Source of the DNA: Nitrosomonas sp.
GTDB lineage: Bacteria > Pseudomonadota > Gammaproteobacteria > Burkholderiales > Nitrosomonadaceae
Assembly (NCBI GenBank): GCA_019635215.1
Contig: JAHBZZ010000018.1
Location: forward strand, 1 to 64,000
Length of the DNA stretch: 64,000 nucleotides
Direction: 5' to 3'
In this document: positions 1 through 63,564 of the stretch, in pieces
Position numbering within the stretch: position 1 is the first letter of the stretch
How the letters are laid out: every line of letters starts with the position of its first letter
Program-made: the position numbers and the translations under genes
Notes under the pieces: generated by a model
The model's database searches: none
The model's input: the letters and a program-made list of their open reading frames with translations, nothing else
Told to the model about the DNA's origin: nothing

Positions 1-28
1 CCAGGTTCGAGCCCTGGTCAGGGAGCCA
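1..28 (+). tRNA. tRNA-Asn, 3' end only (partial)
   Basis: The window opens inside a tRNA gene. A 5-bp T stem (CCAGG/CCTGG) encloses the loop TTCGAGC, followed by a 7-nt acceptor strand (TCAGGGA), discriminator G and an encoded CCA ending at 28. Discriminator G with A72 fits tRNA-Asn or tRNA-Gln. The related copy at 59626 includes an anticodon loop CTGTTAA, which points to Asn (GTT). It is the likely intact end of the attachment site used by the island that follows. Confidence 0.8.
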
Positions 29-26069: not shown

Positions 26070-29000
26070 CTAAGTTACATTTTTTGATTCTTCTTGATTT
26101 TTGGTAATGGCCTTAAGTCTTGATAAGCTTCGACCACGCCACAATGAAAAAATAGCCGGAAAAACAATCAATACTAGAATCAATGTCGAGCCCGCACCGC
26201 CCAACATAGGCGCAGCTATTCGCTTCATCACATCAGCGCCACTACCACTACTGTACATGATGGGAAGTAAACCTAAAAACAGCGTCATGCTGGTCATCAA
26301 CATTGGGCGAATGCGCTGACTTGCTCCCTCAGCAATCATATTTTTCAGGTCTGTTCTGGTTTTAAGTGAACCGTCTACGACATGCCTGCGCCACGCGAGA
26401 TCCAAATACAGCATCATCAGGAGTCCTAATTCAACCGACAGTCCGGCCATCGCAATCATGCCAACCACGACGGCAACGCTCAAATTGTAATCGAGTGCGG
26501 CCAGGAGCCAGATACTGCCGATTAGCGAAAATGGCAGTGCTGTCATAATGATCAGTGTTTCGGCTATTGATTTTCGATGCATATAGAGCATAAAAAAGAT
26601 TAAGAATATGGTCAGCGGTACCAGAATTGTCAGGCGAGCTTTAGCGCGTTCGAAATACGTGAATTGTCCAGCCCAATCGATACGGTATCCTGGTGCTATT
26701 TCCACATTCTCAGTGACAACATCGCGCGCCAGTTCGACATAATCGGCAATACCGATCTTGTCACTGACATCAACGAACACAAAGCTGACAAGCTGACCAT
26801 CTTCATTTCTGAGCATCGGCGGTCCCGTACGAAAGCGAATATCGGCGACCTGTGTAATCGGTATCTGTGCGCCGGTCGGAGTTGACACGAATACGCGCTC
26901 AAGTGCTGCAATATTGTCACGGTATTCGCGGGCATAGCGTACAAGAATACCGTAGCGCTCACGACCTTCAACGGTCTCGCTTACCTTAATACCGCCAATT
27001 GCGGACTCGACAACGGATTGTATGTCATTCACATTAAGGCCAAATCGTGCTGCGGCTTTGCGATCAATGTCGAAATCCAGGAAGTACCCGCCCGTTGCGC
27101 GTTCGGCGAAAGCGCTGCGTGTATAAGGTGCGGTACGTTCATCATCAAGCAGCGCGCGCTCAATATCGATCGCAATGGATTCGATTGCCGAAAGACTAGG
27201 CCCAAAAACTTTGATACCGAGTGAGGAACGTATGCCGGTCGCCAGCATTTCGGTGCGTGTTTGTATCGGCATCCACCAGATATTCGGCATACCCGGAAAG
27301 CGCATTGCATTATCCATCTCACCAATCAACTTGTCCCAGGTCATACCTTCACGCCATTCGTTTTCGGGCTTTAGCATAATATTAGATTCGATCATCGATA
27401 ATGGGGCAGGATCCGTAGGGCTGGTACTGCGTCCAACCTTGCCGAACACGCGTTCGACTTCAGGAAATTTCTTTAACTCGCGATTCATGGTTTGCATAAC
27501 GCGCGTAGCTTCCTCAACGGAAATATTAGGCAGCGTAGTCGGCATATAAAGAATACTGCCTTCGTTAAGCGGCGGCATGAATTCAGTGCCGATGCTACGA
27601 TATACGGGCACAGTTGCTGCAAGTGCGAATAATGCTAGAATGATTACTGGCCAGCGCCAATGCACCGCTAATTTTACGACGGGCACATAGAATGCCGTTA
27701 ATCCTTTGTTCAGCCTGCTATGATCACCATGAATGCGTCCCTTGATCAGAAGGATAGCCAGTGCCGGGATCAGCGTCACTGACAGCAATGCCGCGAAGAA
27801 CATCGAATAGGTCTTGGTGTAGGCCAAAGGTTTGAACAAACGGCCCTCAGTACTTTCGAGGGCAAATACGGGAATAAATGAAATAGTAATGATCAATAGT
27901 GAAAAGAAAATACTGGGACCAACTTCCTGCATGGCTTCGATCACAGCACGCATTCTAGCTTCACCCTGCAGTATTTCGTTTTGCAGGCGCTTATGAATAT
28001 TATCAATAATGACAATTGCAGCATCGACCATGGCGCCAATGGCCACAGCGATACCGCCAAGCGACATGATGTTTGCCGTTAATCCCTGATAAAACATCGG
28101 AATGAACGACAGCAATATTGCAATGGGTAACGTTACAATCGCCACAATCGCTGATCGCACATGCAGGAGAAATAAACCGATAACTAGAGACACGATCAAC
28201 ATTTCGTGAATGAGCGTATTCTGTAGTGTCTCGATCGCACGTTCAATTAAATTGGAGCGGTCGTAAACAGGAACAATCTCGACACCTGGCGGCAAGGTGG
28301 TCTTGAGAATATTTATTCGATTTTTGACCCGATTAATAACGTCAAGGACATTTTCTCCATACCGTATGACAACAATACCACCGACTGTAATGCCTTCGCC
28401 ATCCAAATCCGCCTGTCCGCGCTGTAATGCAGGTCCCAGACTAACAGTTGCTACATCGGCAACGCTAATCGGTATACCACCGTCACCCACACCGATTACG
28501 ACATCTTTGAGATCCTCAACTGATTTGACATAACCTCGGCCGCGAATGAATTGTTCATGTCCGGCGACTTCTAAAACGCGCCCGCCAACATCTTTATTGG
28601 ACGCGCGGACTGCTGCTATCACTTTATCTAGAGAAACACCGTAAGATGACAATCTGTTAGGGTCAATATTAATTTGATATTCCTTGATAAAGCCACCTAC
28701 TGAAGCAACTTCGGCAACCCCTTCTACAGCTTCGAGTGCATAGCGCAGATTAAAATCCTGTAAGCTGCGCAAATCTGCCAGACTCTGATTGCCACTTTTA
28801 TCGACCAATGCATACTGGTATCCCCAGCCAACTCCGGTCGCGTCTGGTCCTAGCGTAGGCTGCACGGCATCCGGTAGTTTGGAAGCAGCTGAATTCAGGT
28901 ATTCCAGTACCCGGGATCTGGCCCAATAGATGTCTGTTCCATCTTCAAAGATTACATACACAAATGATAATCCCATAAAGCTTTGTCCACGAACAAAACG

Positions 29001-29273
29001 GACATCAGGCGCGGCAAGCAGCGTAGTTGTCAACGGATATGTAATCTGGTCTTCGATCAAGTCCGGGCTGCGTCCGGGCCAATTGGTAAATACTATCACC
29101 TGCACATCCGATAGATCAGGAATAGCATCGAGTGGCGCACTGATGAATGAACGATAGCCCCATATGGTTGCGACGAGAACCAGCATCACAGTGAGAAGCC
29201 AATTACGCGCTGAAAAACCAATCACCGTTTCGACCGGACCAAGTTTTCTTTTATTGTCATTGGTGTTTACCAT
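26070..29273 (-). CDS. cusA: Cus-type HME-RND copper/silver efflux pump (CusA, copy 1)
   Basis: 1067 residues. Typical CusA start (PLDAIPDLSDVQVIVFT) and relay helix AIGAMVDAAIVIID. The three Met that bind Cu(I)/Ag(I) in E. coli CusA appear conserved: LYMPTT, LSMIESN and TEMLATG. It exports monovalent copper or silver. The gene starts inside the end of the adaptor gene (7-bp overlap) and is last in the operon. Confidence 0.92.
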   Translation of the reverse strand: MVNTNDNKRKLGPVETVIGFSARNWLLTVMLVLVATIWGYRSFISAPLDAIPDLSDVQVIVFTNWPGRSPDLIEDQITYPLTTTLLAAPDVRFVRGQSFMGLSFVYVIFEDGTDIYWARSRVLEYLNSAASKLPDAVQPTLGPDATGVGWGYQYALVDKSGNQSLADLRSLQDFNLRYALEAVEGVAEVASVGGFIKEYQINIDPNRLSSYGVSLDKVIAAVRASNKDVGGRVLEVAGHEQFIRGRGYVKSVEDLKDVVIGVGDGGIPISVADVATVSLGPALQRGQADLDGEGITVGGIVVIRYGENVLDVINRVKNRINILKTTLPPGVEIVPVYDRSNLIERAIETLQNTLIHEMLIVSLVIGLFLLHVRSAIVAIVTLPIAILLSFIPMFYQGLTANIMSLGGIAVAIGAMVDAAIVIIDNIHKRLQNEILQGEARMRAVIEAMQEVGPSIFFSLLIITISFIPVFALESTEGRLFKPLAYTKTYSMFFAALLSVTLIPALAILLIKGRIHGDHSRLNKGLTAFYVPVVKLAVHWRWPVIILALFALAATVPVYRSIGTEFMPPLNEGSILYMPTTLPNISVEEATRVMQTMNRELKKFPEVERVFGKVGRSTSPTDPAPLSMIESNIMLKPENEWREGMTWDKLIGEMDNAMRFPGMPNIWWMPIQTRTEMLATGIRSSLGIKVFGPSLSAIESIAIDIERALLDDERTAPYTRSAFAERATGGYFLDFDIDRKAAARFGLNVNDIQSVVESAIGGIKVSETVEGRERYGILVRYAREYRDNIAALERVFVSTPTGAQIPITQVADIRFRTGPPMLRNEDGQLVSFVFVDVSDKIGIADYVELARDVVTENVEIAPGYRIDWAGQFTYFERAKARLTILVPLTIFLIFFMLYMHRKSIAETLIIMTALPFSLIGSIWLLAALDYNLSVAVVVGMIAMAGLSVELGLLMMLYLDLAWRRHVVDGSLKTRTDLKNMIAEGASQRIRPMLMTSMTLFLGLLPIMYSSGSGADVMKRIAAPMLGGAGSTLILVLIVFPAIFSLWRGRSLSRLKAITKNQEESKNVT

Positions 29274-44837: not shown

Positions 44838-47054
44838 TCATAACCTGATCAATCGAAGCCGCAAGGCATTGACTATTACGCTGACCGATGACAGTGACAT
44901 TGCTGCAGCGGCGATAATGGGCGAAAGCAAGACAGCAAAGAACGGATAAAGAATACCTGCAGCAATAGGTATGCCTGCCGAATTGTAAACAAAAGCAAAA
45001 AACAAGTTCTGTCGTATATTTCGCATGGTAGCTACAGACAGTTTTCGAGCACGCACAATACCCATCAGATCACCTTTAAGCAAGGTGACGCCCGCGCTTT
45101 CGATAGCCACATCTGTACCCGTGCCCATGGCTATGCCCACATCAGCAGCGGCCAGCGCAGGCGCATCATTCGTGCCATCTCCAGCCATGGCGACAACACG
45201 CCCTGTATCACGCAGCTTTTTAACAATCTTGCTCTTATCCTCGGGAAGAATTTCGGCTTCTACTTCTTCAATTCCCAGTCTTTTGGCCACAGCTTCAGCG
45301 GTACGACGATTATCGCCAGTGAGCATAACAATATGGATACCCTGTTTCTTAAGCTGATTGATTGCATCCGGTGTTGTCTCCTTAACAGGATCCGCAATCG
45401 CCAGAATCCCCGCCACTTGACCGTCTACAGCAATAAAAATTACTGTGGCACCATCGGAACGCATCTCATTGGCTTGGTTGGACATTGAAGATACATTTAC
45501 ATCTTTTTCTTCCATCAGCATTACATTGCCAAGTGCGACATTTTGCCCTTTGATTCTTCCGATTACCCCCTTACCGGTTGGTGAGTCAAAATCGCTCATT
45601 TCCGCTAAACGCAGTTCCTTGTTTTTGGCCGCCATAACAATGGCGTGAGCCAGAGGATGTTCACTGCCCTGCTCCAATGAAGCAGCCATTTGTAAAAGAT
45701 CATCAGTAAAAAATCCAGGGGCAGCAATAATATTTGTCACGGCCGGTTTTCCTTCGGTCAGTGTTCCGGTCTTGTCAATAACCAGCGTATCAACCTTTTC
45801 CATACGTTCCAGTGCTTCAGCATTTTTTATTAGTACGCCTGCCTGCGCACCTTTACCCACTCCCACCATAATGGACATGGGTGTGGCCAGTCCTAGTGCG
45901 CAGGGACAGGCGATAATCAAAACACTGACAGCAGCGATTAGCGCGTAACTGAAAGCAGGTGAAGGTCCGTATATGCTCCATAAGAAAAAAGCCAGAACAG
46001 CCACGATGATGACAGCCGGAACAAACCATGACGCAACGACATCTGCCATTCTCTGGATTGGCGCGCGGCTGCGTTGTGCCTCCGCAACCATATGAACTAT
46101 TTGTGAGAGCATGGTATCTTTACCGACATGCTCGGCTTTCATAATAAAACTGCCGGTCTGATTCATTGTTCCGCCGATGGCCTTGCTTTCCGGCTCTTTC
46201 TTAACGGGCATCGACTCGCCTGTAACCATGGATTCATCAACAGAACTTCGACCTTCGGTGACAATCCCGTCGAGTGGCACCTTTTCGCCGGGGCGCACGC
46301 GCAGCAGATCACCGACTTTAATCTGATCTAGCGGCACATCTTCATCTTCGCCGCTTTCATCAATTCTGCGGGCTGTTTTTGGCGCAAGATCAAGCAGAGC
46401 ACGGATTGCGCCGCCTGTCTGTTCACGTGCTTTAAGTTCAAGTACCTGCCCGAGAAGAACCAGCACTGTGATTACTGCGGATGCTTCAAAATAAACCGCA
46501 ACCACTCCATTTTGTCGAAAAGTTTCAGGAAAAATGCCGGGCGCCAATGTTGCCACTATACTGTATAGCCAAGCCACCCCTGTTCCCATGGCAATCAGCG
46601 TAAACATATTCAGATTACGACTTCGCAGCGAAGCCCAACCTCGTTCGAAAAACGGTTTTCCTGCCCAAAGTACAACCGGCGTCGCCAGTACTAATTGTAT
46701 CCAGTTGGATAGCATGCCGCTGATGTAATGATGCAGATCAAAAACGTGCCCGCCCATTTCCAATGTAAAAACTGGCAACGTCAAAACAAGGCCAACCCAA
46801 AACCGTTTGCGCATATCTGTTAGCTCAGGATTTTCACCTTCATCACCCGTCATTGTTTCAGGTTCCAGCGCCATGCCACAAATCGGGCAGTTTCCTGGTC
46901 CGTTTTGTCGGATCTCCGGATGCATGGGACAGGTGTAGATCGTATTTGCCTTATCAGATTGAGAAACGCCGAGGGGTTTATCTGCATGAATATGGTTATG
47001 CCCGCAACTTGTGTGCTCATCAGATTCTTGCTCAGGCTTTTTCTGTTCCATCAT
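44838..47054 (-). CDS. copA: copper-translocating P1B-type ATPase (CopA/SilP-like)
   Basis: 738 residues. A His-rich N-terminus ([10 protein letters not shown]) and a heavy-metal-binding YTCPMHPEI...[10 protein letters not shown] domain replace the usual HMA domains. Then come eight membrane helices with the CPC ion motif ([13 protein letters not shown]), phosphatase TGES, phosphorylation DKTGT, and GDGTNDAP. Cys-Pro-Cys with MSLSSVSV near the end fits Cu(I)/Ag(I) export to the periplasm. It ends the cueR-TPR-copA set. Confidence 0.9.
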
Positions 47055-50862: not shown

Positions 50863-52200
50863 GTGATGTGTCTTTCAATTTATGTATTAATATTAAGAGC
50901 ATGCGATATTATGTTTTCATTTTCCATTTTTTCAAGTTGCGTTTCTTTAAGTTTGTTATTACTTGTAAATAACGCTTTTGCCGGAGCAGATCATAATTTT
51001 CTAACACTTAAATCGGCAACAGAAATAGCCACCCAACATAATCCAGGTCTAGCACAAATGAGAGCACGTGCCGAAGCAATAGCGGCGATCCCATCCCAAG
51101 TAGGCACGCTACCTGATCCTGAAATTAGCGTCAGTGCTGCGAATCTGCCTGTTAGCACATTCAATAGCGCTCAGGTAGATATGACACAAATTGGACCGGG
51201 TATTTCTCAAGCCATTCCTTTTCCAGGTAAATTGACATTACGTAGCTCAGCGGCAACTTTTGAAGCAAAAGCTGCATTAGAAAATGTAACGGAAGCTCGA
51301 TGGTGGTTACTTAGCAGCGTCAAACAAGTTTGGTGGCAAATTTTTTACCTGGATCATGCGCTACAAGTCGTAAAAGACAACCAATTACTGCTAGAACAGT
51401 TTATTCAGATCACACGCACAAAATATGAAGTGGGCGAAGGATTGCAGCAAGATATTTTATTGGCGCAATTGGAGCTGTCCAACTTGTTGGATCAACAACT
51501 TAAACTAGAAGGTACGCGACGTAACTCAGTTGCGAAACTGAATGCATTATTAGATAGAGCTGCCAATCAACCAATAAGATTACCTGAAGAGATAACAGAA
51601 GAATTACCCACTATTATTTCTGAAACTGCACTGTATCGGCTGGCCGAGCACTCCAGAGCACTGTTGGCATCGAAACATGAGTCTATCAATGCTGCAAGGG
51701 CTCGTGTAGATCTGGCTAAAAAAGATTTTTATCCAGACTTTAAGTTACGGGCTTCTTATGGATTTCGACGTGATAATCCAGCTGGTATTGATCGAGATGA
51801 TTTTTTAACACTTGGTTTGAGTATGAACGTTCCAATTTTCTTGGATCGGAAGCAAGCTAAAGCAGTGGATCAGCGTAACAGCGAATTGATGCAGCAGAAA
51901 TATATGCTTCAGGATGAATGGAATAACGTGCGTGCCCAGATCTCACAAAGCTATAGCGACTTCCAACGTGCCACGGAACAAACGATATTGTTTAAAACTG
52001 GCATCATTCCTCAGGCAAAACAAACTGTAGCATCCATGCTGGTTGGTTATCAAGTCAACAAAGTTGATTTCTTGAACCTAGTTCGGAGTCAGATTACTTT
52101 ATTAAATAATGAGCTGCAATATTGGAGTGCTTTTGCAGAAGCCAATCAAGCTTTGGCTAACTTAGTGGCTGCTGTCGGCAGGGAAGAAATTTATGAGTAA
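50863..52200 (+). CDS. cusC: outer-membrane factor of the second Cus operon
   Basis: 445 residues as opened; the ATG at 50911 (MFSFSIFSSC) gives a cleaner signal peptide ending NAFAGA. TolC-superfamily repeats (SATEIATQHNPGLAQMRARA, LYRLAEHSRALLASKHES) and a PFPGKLTLRSS turn. The stop overlaps the adaptor start by 8 bp. Confidence 0.87.
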   Translation: MMCLSIYVLILRACDIMFSFSIFSSCVSLSLLLLVNNAFAGADHNFLTLKSATEIATQHNPGLAQMRARAEAIAAIPSQVGTLPDPEISVSAANLPVSTFNSAQVDMTQIGPGISQAIPFPGKLTLRSSAATFEAKAALENVTEARWWLLSSVKQVWWQIFYLDHALQVVKDNQLLLEQFIQITRTKYEVGEGLQQDILLAQLELSNLLDQQLKLEGTRRNSVAKLNALLDRAANQPIRLPEEITEELPTIISETALYRLAEHSRALLASKHESINAARARVDLAKKDFYPDFKLRASYGFRRDNPAGIDRDDFLTLGLSMNVPIFLDRKQAKAVDQRNSELMQQKYMLQDEWNNVRAQISQSYSDFQRATEQTILFKTGIIPQAKQTVASMLVGYQVNKVDFLNLVRSQITLLNNELQYWSAFAEANQALANLVAAVGREEIYE

Positions 52201-53539
52201 ATCATTAGTAATCGTTGCTGTTGTAATGCTGGTTGTAGGTATTAGTGGCGGCTGGTTCGCTAAAGATTATTTGCAGCCAGGCACTACGCAGTATCTACAA
52301 GATAATAAACAGACTACTCATTCTGAGAAAAGTAAGAAACCGCTTTTTTACCGTAGTCCCATGAGCCCGTCGGTTACTTCCCCCGTTCCCACAAAAGATC
52401 CAATGGGCATGGACTATGTTCCGGTATACGCTGATGATAACAGTGAAGCTGGCCAGTCGACGGGTACCGTCAAGATTGACCCAATCACTGAGCAAAATAT
52501 AGGTGTGCGTACCGCGATTGTTAAAAGAGACATACTATCACGTGTTGTGCGAACAGTCGGTCGCGTGGACTATGATGAAGAACGTATCGTACGATTACAT
52601 CCTAAAGTCGAAGGTTGGGTTGAAACCATGCGTGTCGACAAAACTGGCGAAAAGGTTAAGAAAAATCAGGATCTGCTCAGTATTTATTCTCCCCAGCTAG
52701 TTGTCAGCCAGCAGGAATACGTACTGGCTTTAAACAATCTCCACATATTAAAACAAAGTCCTATTGCAGACATCCGCCGTGGCGCGGAAGAACTGGTCAA
52801 CAGCGCACTCGAACGACTAAAACTCCTGGATGTTCCGGAGCACCAACTGCATGATCTGACACAAGACCATAATATACACAAAAACCTGCACATTCATACG
52901 CCTGCATCAGGAATTGTAGTGAATATCGGTGCACGTGAAGGCCAGTACGTAACACCAGCAACAGAGATTTATATGATAGCCGATTTGTCCACAGTCTGGG
53001 TATATGCAGATATCTATGAAAATGAATTACCCTGGGTGCAATCGGGTGATCTGGTTGAAATGCGGCTGGCAGGCATTCCTGGGCGTGTTTTCAGAGGTCA
53101 CCTGGCTTTCATTTATCCCTATGCCGAAGCAAAAACCAGAACAATCAAAGTTCGTCTTGATTTTAAAAATACCGAATTGTTATTAAAACCGGACATGTTC
53201 GCCGAAATATCGATTTATGCAGGCAAGCAAAAGAGTGCATTAGTGATTCCCTCCGAGGCAGTCATTCGTTCAGGCACGCGCGACAAGGTGCTGGTTGTAC
53301 GTGACGCTGGCAAATTTGAACCACGCACCATTACAACAGGTGTGGCATCTGATGGGAAAGTGATTGTTCTGGATGGATTAAAAGAAGGTGAAGAAGTTGT
53401 CACGTCAGCCCAATTCCTGATTGATTCTGAATCCAATCTACGTGAAGCCACAGCCAAAATGACAAATCCAGGGCTAGAAGAAAATGAAGCTAAACCCAGT
53501 CCATTACAGATAGAAGAAGGACCGCATCAACATGATTAA
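52193..53539 (+). CDS. cusB: CusB-type periplasmic adaptor
   Basis: 448 residues. One membrane anchor, then a degenerate metal-binding motif FYRSPMSPSVTSPVPTKDPM followed by GMDYVPVY, in which the Cys of the CPMHP domain are replaced but the Met are kept, as in CusB. Lipoyl, hairpin and barrel domains follow (GWVETMRVDKTGEKV, YSPQLVVSQQEYV, VPSEAVIRSG). Ends EGPHQHD. Overlaps both neighbours by 8 bp. Confidence 0.9.
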   Translation: MSKSLVIVAVVMLVVGISGGWFAKDYLQPGTTQYLQDNKQTTHSEKSKKPLFYRSPMSPSVTSPVPTKDPMGMDYVPVYADDNSEAGQSTGTVKIDPITEQNIGVRTAIVKRDILSRVVRTVGRVDYDEERIVRLHPKVEGWVETMRVDKTGEKVKKNQDLLSIYSPQLVVSQQEYVLALNNLHILKQSPIADIRRGAEELVNSALERLKLLDVPEHQLHDLTQDHNIHKNLHIHTPASGIVVNIGAREGQYVTPATEIYMIADLSTVWVYADIYENELPWVQSGDLVEMRLAGIPGRVFRGHLAFIYPYAEAKTRTIKVRLDFKNTELLLKPDMFAEISIYAGKQKSALVIPSEAVIRSGTRDKVLVVRDAGKFEPRTITTGVASDGKVIVLDGLKEGEEVVTSAQFLIDSESNLREATAKMTNPGLEENEAKPSPLQIEEGPHQHD

Positions 53540-56500
53540 TGCCATCCTTAATGGATCACTAAATAATCGATTTATGGTTCTGCTGGCGGTAGTTGTGCTG
53601 GCAACAGCAGGATTTTGGTCTTTCAAAAACATCTCGTTAGACGCCATTCCTGACTTGTCGGATGTACAGGTCATTGTATTTACTGAATTCCCTGGACAAG
53701 CGCCTCAGGTGGTAGAAGATCAAGTTACTTATCCGTTGACTACCGCCCTGCTGGCGGTACCGCATGCAAAAGTGGTGCGCGGCTATTCTTTCTTTGGACT
53801 ATCCTTTGTTTATATCATTTTTGAAGATGATACCGATATGTATTGGGCCAGATCCCGGGTGCTGGAGTACCTCAATTATGCCAATGAGCGGCTGCCGCAA
53901 GGTGTCAATCCATCACTGGGGCCGGATGCAACCGGTGTTGGTTGGGTTTACGAGTATGCGCTGATCGACAGAACCGGAAAACATGATCTGGCACAATTAC
54001 GTTCCATTCAGGACTGGTATTTGCGCTACCCACTGCAAACAGTACACGGTGTATCAGAAGTCGCGTCAGTCGGTGGTTATGTCAAACAATACCAGATAGA
54101 AGTTAACCCGAATGCATTACTTGCCTATGGTATTCCCTTGTCCAAAGTGAAATATGCCATTCAACGCTCGAATAATGATGTTGGCGGCAGAGTAGTTGAA
54201 ATGGCCGAAACAGAATATATGGTGCGCGGCCTGGGCTATATACGTTCGCTTGATGACATCAGGAGTATTCCTGTAGGTGTTGACGCCAATGGTACGCCTA
54301 TTCGTATGGAAGACGTCGCGCAGATTCAAATAGGCCCCGAACTGCGCCGTGGTGTTGTCGAGTTAAACGGAGAAGGCGAAGTCGCTGGTGGTATTGTCAT
54401 CATGCGCTATGGCGATAATGCACAGGCAACCATACTGGGAGTACGTAAGAAACTGGAAGAACTTAAACAAGGGTTGCCAGAAGGCGTTGAGATTGTTCCT
54501 GTTTATGATCGTGGTGACCTGATTGAACGCGCAGTGGATACATTGAATACAGCGCTGATTCAGGAACTGATCATTGTCTGTGTACTTGTTGGCCTGTTTC
54601 TGCTCCACCTGCGCTCATCCCTGGTCATTGTCATCACGCTACCACTTGCCGTGCTAATGGCCTTTATTGTCATGAAATGGCAAGGTATTAATGCAAATAT
54701 CATGTCATTGGGCGGTATAGCTATTGCGATTGGTGATATGGTCGATGGCGCCATCGTGATGGTCGAAAATGCCCACAAGCATTTGAGTGATGCAATTGCA
54801 AAGAAAAAAGCTGAGTTGACCAAAAAAGAACGTTGGCAAGTTATTGGCAATGCTTCTCGTGAGGTAGGACCTTCACTGTTCTTTTCATTACTAATCATTA
54901 CCGTATCATTTATACCCATTTTTGCTATGGAAGCACAGGAAGGTCGGCTGTTCAGCCCACTGGCCTATACCAAATCCTATGCCATGGCCGCTGCAGCCAT
55001 CTTAACTATTACAGTTGTGCCCGTATTGATGGGTTATTTTATTCGCGGCAAAATTATTCCCGAGAAAAAGAACCCGGCTAACCGCTTTTTGCATTTCATT
55101 CATTCGCCAATACTCAAGCTGGCCATGCGCTGGCGGGCAGTGACACTTGTTCTGGCCATGCTACTACTGGCTTCAACCCTTTATCCGTTGTCTAAGATCG
55201 GTAGTGAATTTATGCCGCCGCTGGATGAGGGCGATATACTCTATATGCCTAGTACATTTCCCGGTATTTCCATCACCAAGGCTAAAGAGCTTTTACAACA
55301 AACTGATAAGATTATTAAAGCTTTTCCTGAAGTCCACCATGTCTTTGGAAAAATTGGCCGCGCCGAAACCGCAACGGATCCTGCCCCCTTATCGATGATA
55401 GAAACGACCATACGGCTTAAACCCAGGTCGGAGTGGCCAGATCCAAACAAATCCGCACAGGAATTGGTGTCTGAAATGGATAAGGCTATTAACTTTCCAG
55501 GTGTAGCCAATGCTTGGACGATGCCAATCAAAACACGTATTGATATGCTGTCGACCGGCATTAAAACACCTGTCGGCATCAAAGTTTCCGGACCCGATCT
55601 AGATAAATTGCAGCAATTATCTGAACAGATTGAGCGAGTCATGAAAACGATGCCTGAAACACTATCTGCTTTTGGTGACCGAACTGCGGGTGGGTATTAT
55701 CTGGATTTCGATATCAAACGCGGAGAAGCCGCCCGTTATGGCTTAACGGTGGGTGATGTACAAGACGTTATTCAAAGTGCCATAGGGGGTATGAACATTA
55801 CTGAGACTGTGGAAGGTCTGGAACGTTATCCGGTTAATCTGCGCTATCCCCGAGAATTGCGGGATGATTTGGAGGGCTTGAAGCGTACGTTAATTCCTAC
55901 CCCTACTGGCGCACAGATCCCATTGTCATTAGTGGCCGATCTTATGTTAAGACGAGGCCCGCCCTCTATTAAAAGTGAAAATGCACGTCCTAATGCCTGG
56001 ATTTATGTAGACTTAAAAACCTCCGATATTGGCGGTTTTGTGACGAAAGCAAAAACGCTCCTGGAAAGCCAAGTGTCTCTTCCTGCTGGTTATACTATTA
56101 GCTGGTCGGGTCAATTCGAATATATGGAGCGGGCCGCAGAAAAACTACGTATCGTAGTGCCCCTGACACTCATGCTGATCTTTTTTCTGCTGTATCTCAC
56201 TTTTCGTAATATGGTAGAGCCTGTCATTGTTATGCTAACGGTACCCTTTGGTCTTATTGGTGGTATCTGGCTTGTGTATGTACTTGGCTTTAATCTTTCT
56301 GTCGCGGTTTATGTAGGTTTTATAGCGTTGGCTGGAACGGCTGCTGAAACTGGCGTCATGGTATTAAATTTTATTGACATTGAAATTGCCAGGTTGCGCA
56401 AACAAAAACAAGCACTATTGTCTTCCACAGAAATTAAAGAGGCGGTTGAGTCTGCGACTGCAATGCGTGTGCGGCCTGTATCGATAACTGCATTCTCTAC

Positions 56501-56672
56501 CATGATCGGATTAATTCCCATCATGATGGCCACTGGCAGTGGTGCAGACGTCACCCACCGCATTGCGGCACCGGTATTAGGTGGTATGTTCACAGTATTA
56601 TTGTTGACTCTACTGGTTTTCCCAGTTATCTACAGTTTGGTTCTGCAATTTCAAGAAAAAAGAAAGCAATAA
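53532..56672 (+). CDS. cusA: Cus-type HME-RND copper/silver efflux pump (CusA, copy 2)
   Basis: 1046 residues. Relay helix AIGDMVDGAIVMVE. The Met triad for Cu(I)/Ag(I) is conserved: LYMPST, LSMIETT and IDMLSTG. Full length, with the second periplasmic domain containing SGTGIKTPVG-type CusA features (STGIKTPVGIKVSG). It exports copper or silver. Similar in design to copy 1 (26070) but clearly a distinct sequence, so not a recent duplicate. Confidence 0.93.
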   Translation: MINAILNGSLNNRFMVLLAVVVLATAGFWSFKNISLDAIPDLSDVQVIVFTEFPGQAPQVVEDQVTYPLTTALLAVPHAKVVRGYSFFGLSFVYIIFEDDTDMYWARSRVLEYLNYANERLPQGVNPSLGPDATGVGWVYEYALIDRTGKHDLAQLRSIQDWYLRYPLQTVHGVSEVASVGGYVKQYQIEVNPNALLAYGIPLSKVKYAIQRSNNDVGGRVVEMAETEYMVRGLGYIRSLDDIRSIPVGVDANGTPIRMEDVAQIQIGPELRRGVVELNGEGEVAGGIVIMRYGDNAQATILGVRKKLEELKQGLPEGVEIVPVYDRGDLIERAVDTLNTALIQELIIVCVLVGLFLLHLRSSLVIVITLPLAVLMAFIVMKWQGINANIMSLGGIAIAIGDMVDGAIVMVENAHKHLSDAIAKKKAELTKKERWQVIGNASREVGPSLFFSLLIITVSFIPIFAMEAQEGRLFSPLAYTKSYAMAAAAILTITVVPVLMGYFIRGKIIPEKKNPANRFLHFIHSPILKLAMRWRAVTLVLAMLLLASTLYPLSKIGSEFMPPLDEGDILYMPSTFPGISITKAKELLQQTDKIIKAFPEVHHVFGKIGRAETATDPAPLSMIETTIRLKPRSEWPDPNKSAQELVSEMDKAINFPGVANAWTMPIKTRIDMLSTGIKTPVGIKVSGPDLDKLQQLSEQIERVMKTMPETLSAFGDRTAGGYYLDFDIKRGEAARYGLTVGDVQDVIQSAIGGMNITETVEGLERYPVNLRYPRELRDDLEGLKRTLIPTPTGAQIPLSLVADLMLRRGPPSIKSENARPNAWIYVDLKTSDIGGFVTKAKTLLESQVSLPAGYTISWSGQFEYMERAAEKLRIVVPLTLMLIFFLLYLTFRNMVEPVIVMLTVPFGLIGGIWLVYVLGFNLSVAVYVGFIALAGTAAETGVMVLNFIDIEIARLRKQKQALLSSTEIKEAVESATAMRVRPVSITAFSTMIGLIPIMMATGSGADVTHRIAAPVLGGMFTVLLLTLLVFPVIYSLVLQFQEKRKQ

Positions 56673-56759: not shown

Positions 56760-59603
56760 CTAAGATATCAACATAAACCTCGCCTCTGATGGCACATCCT
56801 GATTGTTGACTACAAAAAGCATATAGAATCCCGGTGGCGCGATATTTCCGTGGGCAGGGGCTTCGGTTCCTATGGTAGTGGCGGTACGCGAATGAATGGG
56901 CAATTTGATATAACGCTGTCCGGCGTCGGTATGGTGCGTCACCGCAATCGGTGCTATCAACACTACTGCATTGATATCTGCAGCCTGTGACGTTTCAATC
57001 ATAAAATTACTCGCATAGGTAACAGCAGGCGGCGCATTCGACATGACCGGTCGTGCGCCCAAGCTAAGATAACCCGGTGAATAAAGTTCCATCGAATGCT
57101 GATCCGGATCGGCCGTACCCGGCGCAACTCCGCCTACCGCTAGAACTCTTCCTTCCGGTAGTAGAATACAGATCGAGTGATACTGGCGCGGGAAATTCAA
57201 TGGTGCGCCCAGTGCCCATGTATCCGTCGTCGGATCATAGATTTCTGTTTCCAACACGGGTGTCGGTGACCATTTCTGGCCGTTACTGTGGCCGCCTATG
57301 ATGAGTATCTTGCCGGTGGGCAATACAACGGCATTCACATTCGTGCGGCCGAAATTCATATCTGCGGTACGTGCCCACGCCGAACCGACAATTCCGCCAT
57401 TAAATTCAATCATTTCGGCAGTTGCGTTATTGCGCGCAGCGGCAGGACCAGACACACCTCCGCCGAAGACATACAGGCGCGTACGCTCCGGGCTTACGGT
57501 CGTATCTATCATAAGAAGACTCATTCCTTCCTGGCGATCGTAAAACTGTTGTTGTCCGTAATCGGTCCAGTTGCCATTGTTCGGCCCAGTCAGGGTCAGA
57601 TAAGCGGTCTGGGTTCCGGCTGCGCCGGCCCAGCCAGCACGAGTATAGAAAATCTCTCCCGACGGAAGGAGATGCATACCGGGATATAGTTCATCGAATG
57701 AGCGACTTGCACCGACGATTGACGCCCATGTTCCGCCGCCGAACACCTCGACTTCTGCCGCAACAGGGTGTCCGCCAGAGAAAGTAAGTACACGCCCGTC
57801 AGCCAGACTAAGCGCCGTCGGATACCAGTGCGCGTGCGCCATGCTGGTGGCCGGGCCAAACGTACCGCTGTCTGGATTTGTCGCATTAGGCGTAAAAATA
57901 AAACAGCGATTATTGGTGTGTCCCGCGCCATTTGTGTCACCACCGATGATGATCAAACGACCATCAGGCAGGAAAGTATGCCCACAACAGAAAAAATCTT
58001 CCGGCAAATTAATGACGCCTGGCATAATCTGTCTGGTTACAGGTTCATAGATACGAGCTTCAAGTGGATAATTCCTTTCAGCCGCACCGGAAAAAAGCAA
58101 TACATGCCCCGTGTTCAACAGCGCCCCATGAACCACGAAAATCGGTGATGGCTCCAGCAGTTCCCAGCCATCTTCGCCGTCTCCACCGCAAGGGTGATGC
58201 TCTACATCTGGACACTCATGTACACGCACGGTTGGCAACTGGTAACAGATTCGGTCAAGTTCCTTTTCGCTCAACTCGACTTCCTGCATGACGCGAAGCA
58301 ATGCCGCCATGCCTTCCATCATGTGCATCTCCACATGGCAATGGATCAGAAAATCACCTTGTAATCGATATTTTTTGCGCTTTTCTAAATATTGATCGGG
58401 GCAAGCATCTTGCGAAGAATATTTATGTTTCCCACGGGACTGGGAAGAGTGCGATGGATGTTCATGTTCACCGTCAGACATAGGAAGAGGATGAGCTTCT
58501 GTGTACTCGTGAGGTTTGCACTCACACTCAAGTGGCAAAGGTTGGAGAATAACCGGCGGCACGATCGTATCGGCAACAAAAGACTCGGCTGGCCCAAAAG
58601 AACGTGTGTCGATCCACTCATTGCCCCATCGCCACCGTTGTCCATGTAAATGGAAATTGTGCCATACCATGCTCAGATCCAGATTGAAGACATACCATCG
58701 CACGCGAGTTCCGCATTCAGCTACAATAGTGGGGGTATTCCCGACGAATGTACGTCCGTTGATGGCAAATGATTCCAGACCGGCACCGCTGCGCTCGGTT
58801 ACGGTATGAGGCTGATTCCCTGCATGGTTCCAAGTGACCTCCGCACCGACTCCCACTGTTATATCATCGCTTTCGAAACGTGCTGGAGTATCCAGAATAT
58901 TAATGGTAGCTGTAAGAGGGCCAGTTGTCGTGACACGAACGCGCCCTTGCATCGGATGGAAACGGCAGTAGTATTCGAAGGTACCTTCCTGATTAAACGT
59001 AAAAGTAAATAAATCTCCCGCATTAAATGAACCACTATCAAAAAGCGCATTACCGACATTTGCCGTGAGGCGATGAAAAAAAATAGGTACCTCAAGGTCT
59101 GCTTTTTCGCAGCGGGGATCACGAACCACAATGCCACCGAAGAGTCCACGCTTTACGACTTCTTCAATATGCATATGATGATCGTGAAATGGCCACGCAC
59201 CGATAGAATCCTCATGCACATCGAAAATGTAACACCATTGGCCTTCGGGACAAATCGCATCGCTACGATTCGGCCCATCGTATTCCTGCACACCAAAGGG
59301 CCATGAGCCATCCGAGTCGATGCCGTAGTGCAAGCCGTGTACATGGAAGCTGTGAGGTTTGGTGTCGCCATTCAATACATGAACATACAATCGCTCGCCT
59401 GGACGGGTGTAAATAACTGTGCCGGGAATACGCCGTTCGATGCGAGCTTCATTAATATCAGCAGCAATGAGTGGGGTATTATTTTTTGTTGTGTAGGTAG
59501 CATCGAAGTATTCGCGGTAGATCAGCGCATCCAGCAAACGTCGATCAACTTCCGATTGTGGAATTATGCGTATTTTGGCGAGCATTGGCGGTAATAAAAT
59601 CAA
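56760..59603 (-). CDS. multicopper oxidase fused to a copper-radical-oxidase (galactose-oxidase-like) module
   Basis: 947 residues from a TTG at 59603 (ATG at 59585 also possible; an in-frame stop lies just upstream). Residues 40-435 are cupredoxins of a multicopper oxidase: HSFHVHG (84-90), FHDHHMH (139-145), HNFHLHG (315-321) and HCHVEMHMMEG (421-431), plus an inner blue-copper-like YYCRFHPMQG (211-220). A His-rich loop spans 365-395. Residues 485-840 are a kelch propeller and 845-947 an Ig-like DUF1929 domain. Cys539, Tyr594, Tyr808, His809 and His890 match the Cys228-Tyr272 cofactor and copper ligands Tyr495, His496 and His581 of galactose oxidase. No signal peptide is visible. It is convergent with cusA. 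Confidence 0.88.
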   Translation of the reverse strand: MILLPPMLAKIRIIPQSEVDRRLLDALIYREYFDATYTTKNNTPLIAADINEARIERRIPGTVIYTRPGERLYVHVLNGDTKPHSFHVHGLHYGIDSDGSWPFGVQEYDGPNRSDAICPEGQWCYIFDVHEDSIGAWPFHDHHMHIEEVVKRGLFGGIVVRDPRCEKADLEVPIFFHRLTANVGNALFDSGSFNAGDLFTFTFNQEGTFEYYCRFHPMQGRVRVTTTGPLTATINILDTPARFESDDITVGVGAEVTWNHAGNQPHTVTERSGAGLESFAINGRTFVGNTPTIVAECGTRVRWYVFNLDLSMVWHNFHLHGQRWRWGNEWIDTRSFGPAESFVADTIVPPVILQPLPLECECKPHEYTEAHPLPMSDGEHEHPSHSSQSRGKHKYSSQDACPDQYLEKRKKYRLQGDFLIHCHVEMHMMEGMAALLRVMQEVELSEKELDRICYQLPTVRVHECPDVEHHPCGGDGEDGWELLEPSPIFVVHGALLNTGHVLLFSGAAERNYPLEARIYEPVTRQIMPGVINLPEDFFCCGHTFLPDGRLIIIGGDTNGAGHTNNRCFIFTPNATNPDSGTFGPATSMAHAHWYPTALSLADGRVLTFSGGHPVAAEVEVFGGGTWASIVGASRSFDELYPGMHLLPSGEIFYTRAGWAGAAGTQTAYLTLTGPNNGNWTDYGQQQFYDRQEGMSLLMIDTTVSPERTRLYVFGGGVSGPAAARNNATAEMIEFNGGIVGSAWARTADMNFGRTNVNAVVLPTGKILIIGGHSNGQKWSPTPVLETEIYDPTTDTWALGAPLNFPRQYHSICILLPEGRVLAVGGVAPGTADPDQHSMELYSPGYLSLGARPVMSNAPPAVTYASNFMIETSQAADINAVVLIAPIAVTHHTDAGQRYIKLPIHSRTATTIGTEAPAHGNIAPPGFYMLFVVNNQDVPSEARFMLIS

Positions 59604-59625
59604 TAAAAACAGTGGCTAATTAGAC

Positions 59626-59670
59626 CTGTTAATCCGCAGGTCCCAGGTTCGAGCCCTGGTCGGGGAGCTA
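59626..59670 (+). other. attachment-site copy: 3' half of tRNA-Asn
   Basis: The segment runs from the anticodon loop CTGTTAA (GTT anticodon at 59628-59630) through the T arm to the discriminator G. CCAGGTTCGAGCCCTGGTC is identical to the tRNA end at 1-19; two of the next nine bases differ and CCA is CTA. The 5' half is absent. This is how a tyrosine integrase crossing over in the anticodon loop leaves its second boundary. It separates the metal island from the ICE genes at its right. Confidence 0.85.
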
Positions 59671-60539: not shown

Positions 60540-60843
60540 GGTCAACACTCCATACAATAACCAACCGCTGATTATAGGATAGTCATACTGCAAAAAATAT
60601 ACGTTTAAGGAACAAATTTTGTTCCTTAAACAGGTATTTTCTTTAATCAAACATGTGTATTATAAATACCAACAAATGACGTTTAGGTCGTCATTGTTGT
60701 CCTAGCTGAGGAATTAAATAAACAGCATTCAATGATTGTCAGGACTCTTAATTCAGTTTATGAATTCTGCCAATATCAATCAATCCTGCGGGGATGTTTT
60801 GTCCCCAAAGGACTTGATATCTCCGTATTTTTTGGGAGGTATC

Positions 60844-61752
60844 ATGGAAACCATTCTCTCGAACGGTTCTGATCAACAACAAGCAGTTACGTTGACAGAT
60901 CATCCACTGCCTGCGTTTCTGGGGTCTGACTGTGGTCTTAAAGTGTTGTCCGCAGATACGTATCACCAGAACCCGGCCGTTGGCAGTAGCGGCCTTAAAA
61001 AAATCATGCGATCACCAGCGCATTATCAGGAATTCAGACTGAATCCACCTGAGCCAACACCGACAATGCAATTCGGTACGGCATTTCATACCGCATTGCT
61101 CGAACCGGATGTGTTCTCGCGTGATTATGCGGTTGCGCCAAAGTTTGACCGGCGCACCAAAAAAGGCAAGGAAGCAGCCGAAGCCTGGGATAGCGTTAAT
61201 GCAAGTAAAACGGCATTAACTCGGGAACAGACTGATTCCATACAAAAGATGGTCGCCAGCGTGCGTGCCCATACGGGTGCAAGTCTGGTGCTATCCAACG
61301 GCATTGCAGAAATGTCCGGTTTCTGGAAAGACGAAGAAACCGGTGTTGCCTGCAAATGCCGTCCTGACTTTATCGGGTATGACCCATCCGGGTTGTACCT
61401 GGTAGACGTCAAAACCTGTTGCGATGCTTCAATTGAGGGGTTTGCACGCGTGATTGCCAATCTGTCCTACGATGTACAGGCAGCTTTCTACATCGATGGT
61501 ATCAGACGGGTAACCGGGCTTACGCCCAAACAATTCATCTTCATTGCGGTTGAAAAGGATGCGCCGCATATGACGGCAGTCTATACAGCCAGCAATGAAA
61601 TGATTGCAATCGGGCGTGAGAAATACCGGGGTGCGCTGCAGCTTCTGAAGTGGTGCACCCAACACAAACATTGGCCGGGATATCAACCTCACGGGTTGGT
61701 CGAATCAATCGATCTGCCACGCTGGGCGGCCAATTTCACACTCGATGATTAA
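60844..61752 (+). CDS. PD-(D/E)XK exonuclease (RecE/ExoVIII-like)
   Basis: 302 residues from the ATG at 60844, preceded by TTTGGGAGGTATC; an upstream frame to 60736 is less likely. The nuclease core has VGSSGLKKIMRSPAHY, GTAFHTALLEPD, KCRPDFIGYD, and LVDVKTC (the D...DVK catalytic motif), then YDVQAAFYIDG. It resects double strands to give 3' ends for RecT, encoded 150 bp downstream. Confidence 0.85.
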   Translation: METILSNGSDQQQAVTLTDHPLPAFLGSDCGLKVLSADTYHQNPAVGSSGLKKIMRSPAHYQEFRLNPPEPTPTMQFGTAFHTALLEPDVFSRDYAVAPKFDRRTKKGKEAAEAWDSVNASKTALTREQTDSIQKMVASVRAHTGASLVLSNGIAEMSGFWKDEETGVACKCRPDFIGYDPSGLYLVDVKTCCDASIEGFARVIANLSYDVQAAFYIDGIRRVTGLTPKQFIFIAVEKDAPHMTAVYTASNEMIAIGREKYRGALQLLKWCTQHKHWPGYQPHGLVESIDLPRWAANFTLDD

Positions 61753-61903
61753 ATTCTCTGGATTACCCCTGCTGGCTTTTATCCAGGGGATTTAATCATC
61801 CAAACCGGCAGATAGTTGTTATCTGTCATTCATCCATCGGCGGGAACATCTGGTCTCCCGCGAGGGGTATGGTGTCCCGCCTTTTTTATGAAGGAGACGC
61901 ACC
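61753..61903. terminator. intergenic hairpins between exonuclease and recT
   Basis: CCCCTG/CAGGGG pairs shortly after the exonuclease stop (about 61767-61792). Further on GGCGGGA (about 61839) pairs with TCCCGCC before TTTTTT at about 61882-61887, a terminator-like structure just before the recT ribosome site. Expression of recT may be attenuated. Confidence 0.5.
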
Positions 61904-62935
61904 ATGTCTTTACAAGCACTCAAAAATATCAATCGTAATCAGGCAAGCCAGCCAGACAAAGGCAGTAACGATTTTCCCAGTCTGCTGCAGCGGTTCAAAG
62001 GCGAGATAGGACGGGCATTGCCCAAACATATCAACCCCGAACGCATGGTTCGTATTGCACTCACTGCATTTCGAATGAACCCAAAACTCTCGGAATGCGA
62101 TCCGCGTTCGGTCTTTGCCGCCGTGATTCAGTCATCGCAACTCGGACTGGAAGTCGGACTCATAGGTGAAGCGCACCTGGTGCCGTTCAAAACGGAATGC
62201 CAGCTGATACCCGGTTATACCGGACTCATGAAGCTCGCACGCCAAAGTGGTCTGGTTCAGGACATCTATGCGCATGAAGTCAGATTGAACGACACATTCA
62301 ATCTGGTGTTGGGATTGGAGCGCAGTCTTGAACATCAACCGATGACGGCGCCGGGTGGATTTCCGGCTGCTGATGAAGAACGTGGAGAGACCATCGGGTT
62401 TTATGCCGTGGCGGTCTTCAAGGACGGTTCTCGCACTTTTGTGGCGATGAGCCGTGCCGAAGTTGAACGCATTCGGGATGGTTCACGCGGTTATCAGGCA
62501 TCCAAACGGTTTAAAAAAGAATCGGTCTGGGATTCTGATTTCAATGCAATGGGGTTGAAGACGGTGATCCGGCGGTTATGCAAGTATCTGCCCAAATCAC
62601 CCGAACTAGCAACGGCTTTGGCGCTCGACGCATTATCCGAGCAAGGCGCAGGCCAGCATCTCGATCTGGTTGAAGCAGCTACTGGAGATTTCACGCCGGT
62701 AGTGGATGAAGCAGATGTCATTGACGACACCCGATCTGAAAATGACAAACCAGCGCAAAGTAGCCAGAGCAACAAAGGCCCGACTTTAAAAGCAGCGATT
62801 GGTGGGATGGAACAAGCCAAATCCGTTGCAGCACTGGATGAGGTTTATATCCGCCTGGAAGCTGACTTTGAAGGCGATGATCTGGAAACCCTGATAGGCG
62901 AGTACCGCCGCATCAAGGACACGATCAACGGCTGA
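61904..62935 (+). CDS. recT: single-strand annealing protein RecT
   Basis: 343 residues. RecT features: GEIGRALPKHINPERMVRIA, SVFAAVIQSSQLGLEVGLIG, ECQLIPGYTGLMKLARQSG, SVWDSDFNAMGLKTVIRRLC. It anneals complementary single strands and promotes strand exchange with the adjacent exonuclease. A start preceded by GAAGGAG supports the ATG. The acidic C-terminal tail has a linker (TRSENDKPAQSSQSNKG). Confidence 0.9.
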   Translation: MSLQALKNINRNQASQPDKGSNDFPSLLQRFKGEIGRALPKHINPERMVRIALTAFRMNPKLSECDPRSVFAAVIQSSQLGLEVGLIGEAHLVPFKTECQLIPGYTGLMKLARQSGLVQDIYAHEVRLNDTFNLVLGLERSLEHQPMTAPGGFPAADEERGETIGFYAVAVFKDGSRTFVAMSRAEVERIRDGSRGYQASKRFKKESVWDSDFNAMGLKTVIRRLCKYLPKSPELATALALDALSEQGAGQHLDLVEAATGDFTPVVDEADVIDDTRSENDKPAQSSQSNKGPTLKAAIGGMEQAKSVAALDEVYIRLEADFEGDDLETLIGEYRRIKDTING

Positions 62936-63192
62936 TTTTTTTTGATACGGATTCTCCCGCTCAATCGAGCGGGGGTTTCCATGAGTACATAAAACGTTTG
63001 TGTATTCAGGGAAACCGAATTGTTCTTTTGGGTAATCCGAAAGACTTTGAAGGTAGCTGGCCTTCCAAACAAACAGCGTTCAATGGCAGACCGGGAAACT
63101 GGCTGTCGATACCCAAACCCTACCGGGGAAGTTCGATTCCCCATCAGGGGCGTTATCGATTTTTTTCCGGTTTGTTAAATGAGGAGTTCATC
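62936..63192. other. structured intergenic region between recT and ssb
   Basis: About 257 bp with several stems: CCCGCTC/GAGCGGG (62956-62973), GAAGG/CCTTC (about 63050), GGCAG/CTGTC (about 63084-63106), and nested CCCT..GGGGAA-GTTCGA-TTCCCC..AGGG (about 63119-63150), followed by a T7 run near 63161. The last stem looks like a tRNA T arm. It may encode a small RNA or be part of an ssDNA signal; no ORF is convincing. Confidence 0.4.
62956..62973 (+). terminator. hairpin after recT
   Basis: CCCGCTC-AATC-GAGCGGG, a perfect 7-bp stem, 21 bp after the recT stop. It is followed by GGTTTCC rather than a long T run, so a weak terminator. Confidence 0.5.
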
Positions 63193-63564
63193 ATGTTAAA
63201 CAAGGTACACATCATTGGATATTTAGGTAGTAATCCGGACATTCGCTATTCTCAAGGCGGCACTGCTATTGCCAATCTGCGCATTGCAACCAGTGAGCGC
63301 TGGAAAAAAGACGGCGAAAAAAAGGAGAAAACTGAGTGGCACACTGTAGTTCTGTTTGACAAGCTCGCCGAGCTTGCAAAACAGTATTTGCAGAAAGGCT
63401 CACTGGTGTATATCGAAGGAAAACTCCAGACGCGTTCCTGGGACAAGGATGGAGAGGAGCGCTTCACCACGGAAATCATGGCTGAGAGCATGAAGATGTT
63501 GCCAGGTAATAATGGCAACAAATCGAAAGGCGGTCATTCGCAGCAGAATGACCGCCCATTCTAA
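63193..63564 (+). CDS. ssb: single-stranded DNA-binding protein
   Basis: 123 residues from the ATG at 63193 (GAGGAG upstream). OB fold: LNKVHIIGYLGSNPDIRYS, EWHTVVLFDKLAELAKQYL, GSLVYIEGKLQTRSWDKDG. The C-terminal tail ends DRPF, a variant of the usual DDIPF partner-binding tip. ICE-borne SSBs protect single strands during transfer; here it groups with RecT and the exonuclease. Confidence 0.92.
   Translation: MLNKVHIIGYLGSNPDIRYSQGGTAIANLRIATSERWKKDGEKKEKTEWHTVVLFDKLAELAKQYLQKGSLVYIEGKLQTRSWDKDGEERFTTEIMAESMKMLPGNNGNKSKGGHSQQNDRPF

Follow-up and report, generated by a model that had tools for sequence, protein, structure and literature searches.

The window, a 64,000-nucleotide stretch of a Nitrosomonas contig, contains on its minus strand a long frame whose 947 codons are free of internal stop codons and whose product joins a multicopper oxidase (MCO) to a copper radical oxidase (Table 1). 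A first-pass annotation of the same DNA had proposed that these two enzyme types are united in one polypeptide, and this is borne out by the single open frame, by the Pfam domains found along it and by 16 relatives of the same design. The minus-strand orientation, an apparently permuted cupredoxin domain and the loss of about 43 N-terminal residues were not part of that annotation. Upstream of the gene lie part of a tRNA and a group of phage-type recombination genes, and on its other side is an RND efflux operon for which we infer a metal substrate.

Table 1. Features of the fusion gene and its surroundings, in window coordinates (residue numbers are those of the 947-residue product)
Feature	Coordinates	Strand	Basis or remark
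RND efflux operon: outer-membrane factor, CusB/HlyD-like adaptor, AcrB-type pump	50863..56672	+	Convergent neighbour
Whole open frame	56760..59603	-	947 aa; begins with TTG, ATG in frame at 59585
C-terminal half, copper radical oxidase, residues 479-947	56763..58169	-	C539-Y594 pair, W593, Y808, H809, H890
GO-like early-set domain, residues 851-944	56772..57053	-	Pfam GO-like_E_set
MCO domain 2, about residues 278-440	58284..58772	-	Motifs, Pfam and invariance
Variable His-containing loop before the HCH motif, about residues 363-411	58371..58517	-	
Putative circularly permuted plastocyanin-like domain, about residues 184-277	58773..59054	-	Sequence matches, model, invariance
MCO domain 1, residues 55-163	59115..59441	-	Pfam Cu-oxidase_3, motif invariance
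First 13 codons	59565..59603	-	No homology to the 16 relatives
tRNA 3' part, resembling tRNA-Asn by eye	59627..59668	+	Sequence reading
Phage-type recombination genes: exonuclease VIII, RecT, single-strand binding protein	60736..63564	+	

A search of the full protein against domain databases, which the first-pass annotation had suggested, detected Cu-oxidase_3 and Cu-oxidase_2 in the N-terminal half, several kelch motifs and the GO-like early-set domain above the Pfam cut-offs, together with a Copper-bind match at residues 194-224 that barely exceeds its cut-off in the native whole protein (21.6 against 21.2 bits) and falls under it in L009, one of the relatives scanned. Glyoxal_oxid_N remains under its cut-off (31.6 against 37.5 bits), as does the NCBIfam GlxA model (205.5 bits against an equivalog cut-off of 800), and the NCBIfam models for CueO and copper_res_A score far under theirs. 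The first MCO domain, which matches ceruloplasmin and a two-domain laccase, carries the trinuclear-cluster motifs HVHG (H87, H89) and FHDH (H140, H142), while the second carries HNFHLHG (H315, H318, H320) and HCHVEMHMMEGM (H421, C422, H423, H427, M432); all four copper-binding His motifs reported earlier are thus present. In the C-terminal half, C539, Y594, Y808, H809 and H890 occupy the positions that had been claimed for them, and an alignment to the PDB sequence places the radical-oxidase residues in register with those of GlxA at FCTGH, RWYPT, RxYHS and STHVTD. The ligand and catalytic roles given to all these residues are assumed to follow those of galactose oxidase and the laccases. A Foldseek search with an AlphaFold2 model of the whole protein (17 rows) recovered GlxA (4unm) as the top match (E 4.8e-28), followed by galactose and glyoxal oxidases and a fungal alcohol oxidase (5c92; TM 0.81 over the target); the MCO half of this model is unreliable, with pLDDT mostly 20-50.

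Between the first strand and the remainder of MCO domain 2 sits an insert of ~95 residues, in which the predicted ligands occur in the chain order C213, H216, M218 and then H266. In the native order plastocyanin-type proteins match it in two pieces, the half with the Cys-His-Met cluster first and the half with PHTV second, and both 5fc9 and amicyanin align to it as these two pieces, in swapped order; the PHTV half by itself gives weak scores of 7.3 and 10.0 bits. When the usual order was restored the match became one continuous alignment, with the score of 5fc9 rising from 38.8 to 46.4 bits and that of Copper-bind from 28.9 to 32.6 in the window copy, from 33.7 to 35.8 in L016 and from 33.3 to 38.5 in the distant L033, so that the plastocyanin match improved in each of the three members tested. 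The insert in its native order was modeled (17 rows; mean pLDDT 65.6) and compared by Foldseek with 350,542 PDB chains, among which the two chains of 5syd, an engineered azurin that has been circularly permuted, came first and second (E 5.0e-3 and 2.1e-2, both with probability 1.00, against 0.12 for the next match); no match among these chains had an E below 0.001. We take the insert to be a natural circular permutation with a predicted type 1 (T1) ligand set. Were it instead an ordinary MCO domain that has diverged, or a pair of unrelated cupredoxin fragments, this would agree with the half domain that Pfam finds in the native whole protein, with the medium confidence of the structural model and with the unusually short ligand loop, which reads Cys-x2-His-x-Met in 16 of 17 rows, one residue shorter than that of amicyanin, and is longer in L016 and P0002. 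Because of this shortness the axial Met of the insert may not bind. Nevertheless, both halves keep all four ligand residues in 17 of 17 rows, the reordered insert is matched in one piece over its full length in three divergent members and its top structural matches are a permuted azurin, leaving the non-permuted explanation very improbable.

The relatives come from a pattern-based scan that yields close relatives only, and their 16 loci belong to species or MAGs of Nitrosomonas, Nitrosospira and Nitrosovibrio, to one Anaeromyxobacter MAG and to one Methylococcaceae MAG. As the contig of the last ends inside the gene, the three final positions are covered by 16 rows. Across the window copy and these relatives all 22 ligand and catalytic positions are invariant (17/17 rows, and 16/16 for the last three), among them the ten MCO histidines with the T1 Cys and the axial Met, and the radical-oxidase residues listed above. 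A more distant relative, P0002 (genome G224, a different genus of the class), shows 34% overall identity and preserves both the order of the modules and the swapped halves of the inserted domain; it has Leu at the position of the MCO axial Met, no signal at its N-terminus by eye, and a radical-oxidase half much closer to GlxA (E 8.9e-83). An assembly artefact or frameshift join is rejected, as the same fusion was found at 16 loci and 10 of the 85 genus genomes carry it. These domain, motif and alignment assignments indicate that intact members of the family are copper oxidases of three modules, made up of a two-domain MCO (blue T1 site and trinuclear cluster), a permuted plastocyanin-type domain and a GlxA-like copper radical oxidase, with up to six coppers predicted per chain.

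The family is rare, as it occurs in 10/85 genus genomes, the own genome included, and in under 1% of the wider samples: two of 300 genomes of the order, two of 369 of the class, one of 398 in a sample of the phylum (the own genome) and one of 195 in the phylum to which the Anaeromyxobacter MAG belongs (the MAG itself). These counts include the query genomes and depend on the match thresholds used. A common and characterised family, which would have spoken against the earlier observation, is not what we find, and the literature matches listed contain no paper on it. Carriage by plasmids or phages was considered and rejected: no plasmid record gave a full-length match (0/32 matching records cover 80%), the MCO half was not found on plasmids nor the whole protein in phages, and one viral contig, L038, carries a copy whose DNA is identical to the L011 gene.

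The window copy differs from its relatives at the front end, where about 43 N-terminal residues common to all 16 are missing. Its identity to the closest relative, L005, is 98.3%, and the similarity ends at 59564, directly next to the non-homologous first codons; the stretch 59568-59628 is an 85% copy of another part of the own genome, on contig C46. The last 26 bases of the adjoining tRNA part recur at window positions 1-26 with 25/26 identical, and neither ARAGORN nor Rfam called a complete tRNA at the junction, the tRNA part being a probable integration or recombination border. Of the ten genus copies nine match from residue 1-2 and the window copy alone from 44, which establishes that intact copies exist in relatives. 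We read the window copy as truncated and orphaned, perhaps recently. Since the truncation lies at a mobile-element border and a secreted partner protein, #2 (described below), is gone from the genome, the window copy is probably reduced or non-functional, and since it has lost its front end it is the family, not this copy, that constitutes the real find.

Whether the window copy is a dead remnant, its start removed by the mobile-element event and its remainder now drifting, we regard as an even question. The replacement of the lost residues by unrelated codons, the lack of an obvious ribosome site by eye before the in-frame ATG, and the absence of #2 all favor this, as does the ratio of replacement to silent derived codon changes, which is 9:8 on the window branch and 3:9 on that of L005, with R592H, located beside the active-site Trp-Tyr and an Arg in the other 16 rows, among the replacements. 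However, that contrast is not significant (Fisher 0.25), the dN/dS of 0.167 between the window copy and L005 is not relaxed (0.151 for a similarly close pair), and 947 codons remain open with all ligands kept. Apart from the truncation, then, the sequence of the window copy presents no clear decay.

Neighbors were counted in the flanks of the 16 loci, which extend for at most 8 kb on either side. By clustering, six loci have a Kazal-type lipoprotein-like gene ahead of the fusion, and a Kazal-like gene in L005 was found by eye outside the clustering result; secreted protein #2, of about 280 aa, is near the fusion in seven loci, and a further secreted protein, #5, in five. Outside the window, the loci often carry Kazal-like and Cys-rich secreted proteins. 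Beyond the genus the search for #2 covered the flanks, and those of the Nitrosospira and Nitrosovibrio loci showed none. Among the first 61 genomes scanned, full-length #2 was confined to the four other fusion genomes; in the full set of 85 genus genomes it occurs in 16 (E up to 4e-131), comprising all nine with an intact fusion and seven of the 75 without a fusion, with weak partial matches in three more and none in the own genome (G000). A strict pairing of the two genes is consequently rejected, and #2 accompanies the fusion yet also occurs without it. A tyrosinase gene is near the fusion in nine of 16 loci, one of them a fragment; two of these tyrosinases, when run on profiles, match PF00264 and the MelC2 model, the latter under its cut-off. 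G026 has #2 beside a tyrosinase on contig C2, with its fusion located on C5, and the tyrosinase of the own genome forms part of a longer frame, of 750 codons, on a different contig. All five genomes with a fusion among 37 genus genomes have a tyrosinase (chance 0.036), but as 20 of the 37 have one this co-occurrence is weak; no tyrosinase was found in the Anaeromyxobacter MAG or in G224 (87% complete).

By simple hydropathy, the N-termini of the 16 relatives contain neither a hydrophobic stretch nor a signal peptide: the best 12-residue mean within the first 60 residues is 0.52 in these relatives and 1.42 in the truncated window copy, and it ranges from 1.86 to 3.19 in seven Kazal, #2 and #5 neighbors. 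Three neighboring tyrosinases that were tested are like the fusion in having no strongly hydrophobic N-terminus, and two other radical-oxidase-like proteins of the genus (L025, L026) can, by eye, begin with a hydrophobic stretch. The absence of a signal peptide fits copper enzymes poorly unless export is indirect. The Streptomyces tyrosinase MelC2 is carried out of the cell by a partner protein, and by this analogy indirect export of the fusion, with no signal of its own, is possible.

Together these observations lead us to propose, tentatively and at slightly less than even confidence, that the intact three-module copper oxidase acts in an extracellular cassette oxidizing phenols or glycans, and that the copy in the window has been orphaned. 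In such a cassette the radical oxidase would make H2O2 while oxidizing an alcohol or aldehyde that is probably part of a glycan; the T1 site of the MCO would accept electrons from phenols or reduced copper and pass them on for the reduction of O2 to water; and the inserted blue-copper domain might relay or dock electrons. With the tyrosinase and the secreted Cys-rich proteins, the fusion could oxidize or cross-link phenolic or glycan material outside the cell, having perhaps been exported, signal-less, by riding on a secreted partner.

The first-pass annotation had instead linked the protein to an adjacent Cus pump and to Cu(I) oxidation, a role that would make it a copper-defense enzyme akin to CueO and PcoA, MCOs of copper defense with which it may be compared, the radical oxidase being secondary. 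At the locus itself this has some appeal, with the RND pump and its CusB-like adaptor, a MerR regulator and a P-type ATPase with a heavy-metal domain all within 15 kb of the fusion, and with the His-containing loop directly before the HCH motif. Yet a pump lies near the fusion in the flanks of just one of the 16 relatives, the 98%-identical L005 (about 4 kb away), and none of seven large neighbor proteins tested at other loci is an RND pump; a Cus partnership was accordingly rejected as not conserved beyond L005. The usual neighbors are secreted Cys-rich proteins and tyrosinase, and the profile models of the copper-defense MCOs score far too low, so that we consider copper defense improbable. 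The earlier interpretation thus holds for the fusion and for the completeness of both sites, and is not supported for the copper pump; its central observation is right and even understated, and the physiological role proposed above is one that we infer.

A different objection to the proposed cassette enzyme is that its two halves are simply packaged together, each acting independently, or that the MCO provides the radical oxidase with a scaffold or a means of targeting. Appended modules do occur in this setting, as the Nitrosomonas radical-oxidase-like protein L025 carries Big_7 and CARDB modules. The invariance of the MCO histidines, Cys and axial Met in 17 rows is more than a pure scaffold would need, although it speaks only against that version and is neutral toward independent action; on the whole we find this alternative rather doubtful. 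At the opposite extreme, the permuted blue-copper domain might wire the radical oxidase to the trinuclear cluster, creating a self-contained six-copper oxidase from alcohol or aldehyde to water, in which the reduction of O2 by substrate electrons would yield water, either in place of H2O2 or alongside it. We hold such wiring to be quite improbable.

To our knowledge there is little known reason for ammonia-oxidizing bacteria to oxidize organic matter, and the loci described here point to an apparently unstudied copper-oxidase cassette in these organisms. Its central protein would bring three kinds of copper redox site into one polypeptide, and one of these appears to lie in a blue-copper domain that is circularly permuted by nature, the best structural match found for it being an engineered azurin. 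The architecture also turns into a testable question whether electrons pass from the radical oxidase to the MCO rather than to peroxide.

The first-pass annotation named no characterized protein of this design, in agreement with the literature, in which no title or abstract start, among the matches listed, describes a fusion of an MCO with a radical oxidase. The parts consulted of a study tracing GlxA relatives by domain architecture mention no MCO fusion (PMC3543389), and a census of copper proteins in beta-proteobacteria, which records high proportions in Nitrosomonadales, contains no galactose oxidase, kelch or fusion in its main text (PMC6769254). The MCO of N. europaea listed in PMC3600357 has six domains and 1886 residues and is for this reason a different protein. 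A phrase search returned no paper naming a permuted cupredoxin. Among the matches listed by a broader search, two papers showed permutation terms: those of PMC4532836 concern GFP, and PMC3143127 deals with permuted imelysins, with a cupredoxin only as a separate domain of EfeO. For GlxA, a maturation involving Sco and the peroxidase DtpA is described in PMC4736821.

Among known systems, the C-terminal half of the fusion is most like GlxA of Streptomyces (4unm), with which it shares the kelch propeller, the early-set domain, the Cys-Tyr pair, the Trp before the Tyr, the axial Tyr and the two His; GlxA, however, has neither an MCO nor a blue-copper module. The MCO half resembles the two-domain or small laccases and domains 1-2 of ceruloplasmin in the motifs of both domains and in placing the T1 ligands in domain 2, whereas the two-domain laccases lack the permuted insert in domain 2, the His loop before HCH and the trailing radical oxidase. 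Two-domain MCOs form trimers with the trinuclear clusters between subunits. The MelC2-type tyrosinases are type-3 copper enzymes encoded by separate neighboring genes and are distinct from the fusion protein. The insert shares one His and a Cys-His-Met cluster with plastocyanin- and amicyanin-type proteins (5fc9, 1sfd), but its halves are swapped, its ligand loop is shorter than that of amicyanin and the whole domain is embedded in another enzyme.

Three sites in the Nitrosomonas genome that contains the window carry the 3' fragment of a tRNA gene, namely the 5' border of the truncated oxidase fusion, the start of its contig and the start of contig C37. The 60-base stretch adjoining this fragment at the fusion border is an 85% copy of a stretch of contig C46 in the same genome. 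The tRNA-fragment and C46-like repeats look like integration or recombination borders.

The L038 contig, classed as viral in IMG/VR, carries the fusion at its edge, and the DNA of this fusion gene is identical to that of the fusion in the related locus L011. Genes named by eye as a Mu-like transposase and regulator adjoin this copy.

Locations of features in the window and in related loci
Feature	Location	Strand	Remark
AcrB-type RND pumps (three)	window 20520-23708, 26070-29273, 53532-56669
P-type ATPase with heavy-metal binding domain	window 44838-47054
tRNA 3' fragment and adjoining repeat	window 59568-59668 and 1-26		also contigs C37 and C46 of the same genome
Tyrosinase-gene group	L008:5256-7576	minus	similar loci elsewhere
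Secreted neighbors of the fusion (two)	L009:10950-11810, L009:7225-7692		also in relatives
L038 fusion	IMGVR_UViG_2721756095_000004		intact

Within the same 64-kb window, a MerR regulator accompanies three AcrB-type RND pumps and the P-type ATPase.

In the related locus L008 and similar loci, a group oriented divergently from the fusion gene encodes, in order, a signal-less tyrosinase, a 161-residue protein whose tail is rich in His, and a 269-residue protein; neither of the latter two has a Pfam match. In L009 and its relatives, two different secreted neighbors share the C-terminal Cys-rich motif CGGIA..CP.G..C.DDP...CDP..GGADC.GIC. The secreted partner of about 280 residues encoded near some fusions, which matches nothing in Pfam or NCBIfam, occurs at full length without the fusion in seven genomes of the genus (G1253, G1258, G1259, G1286, G1288, G1290 and G1108). 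Among other radical-oxidase-like proteins of Nitrosomonas, L025 (G030) and L026 (G024) begin with a hydrophobic stretch, as judged by eye, and L025 bears Big_7 and CARDB domains at its C-terminal end.
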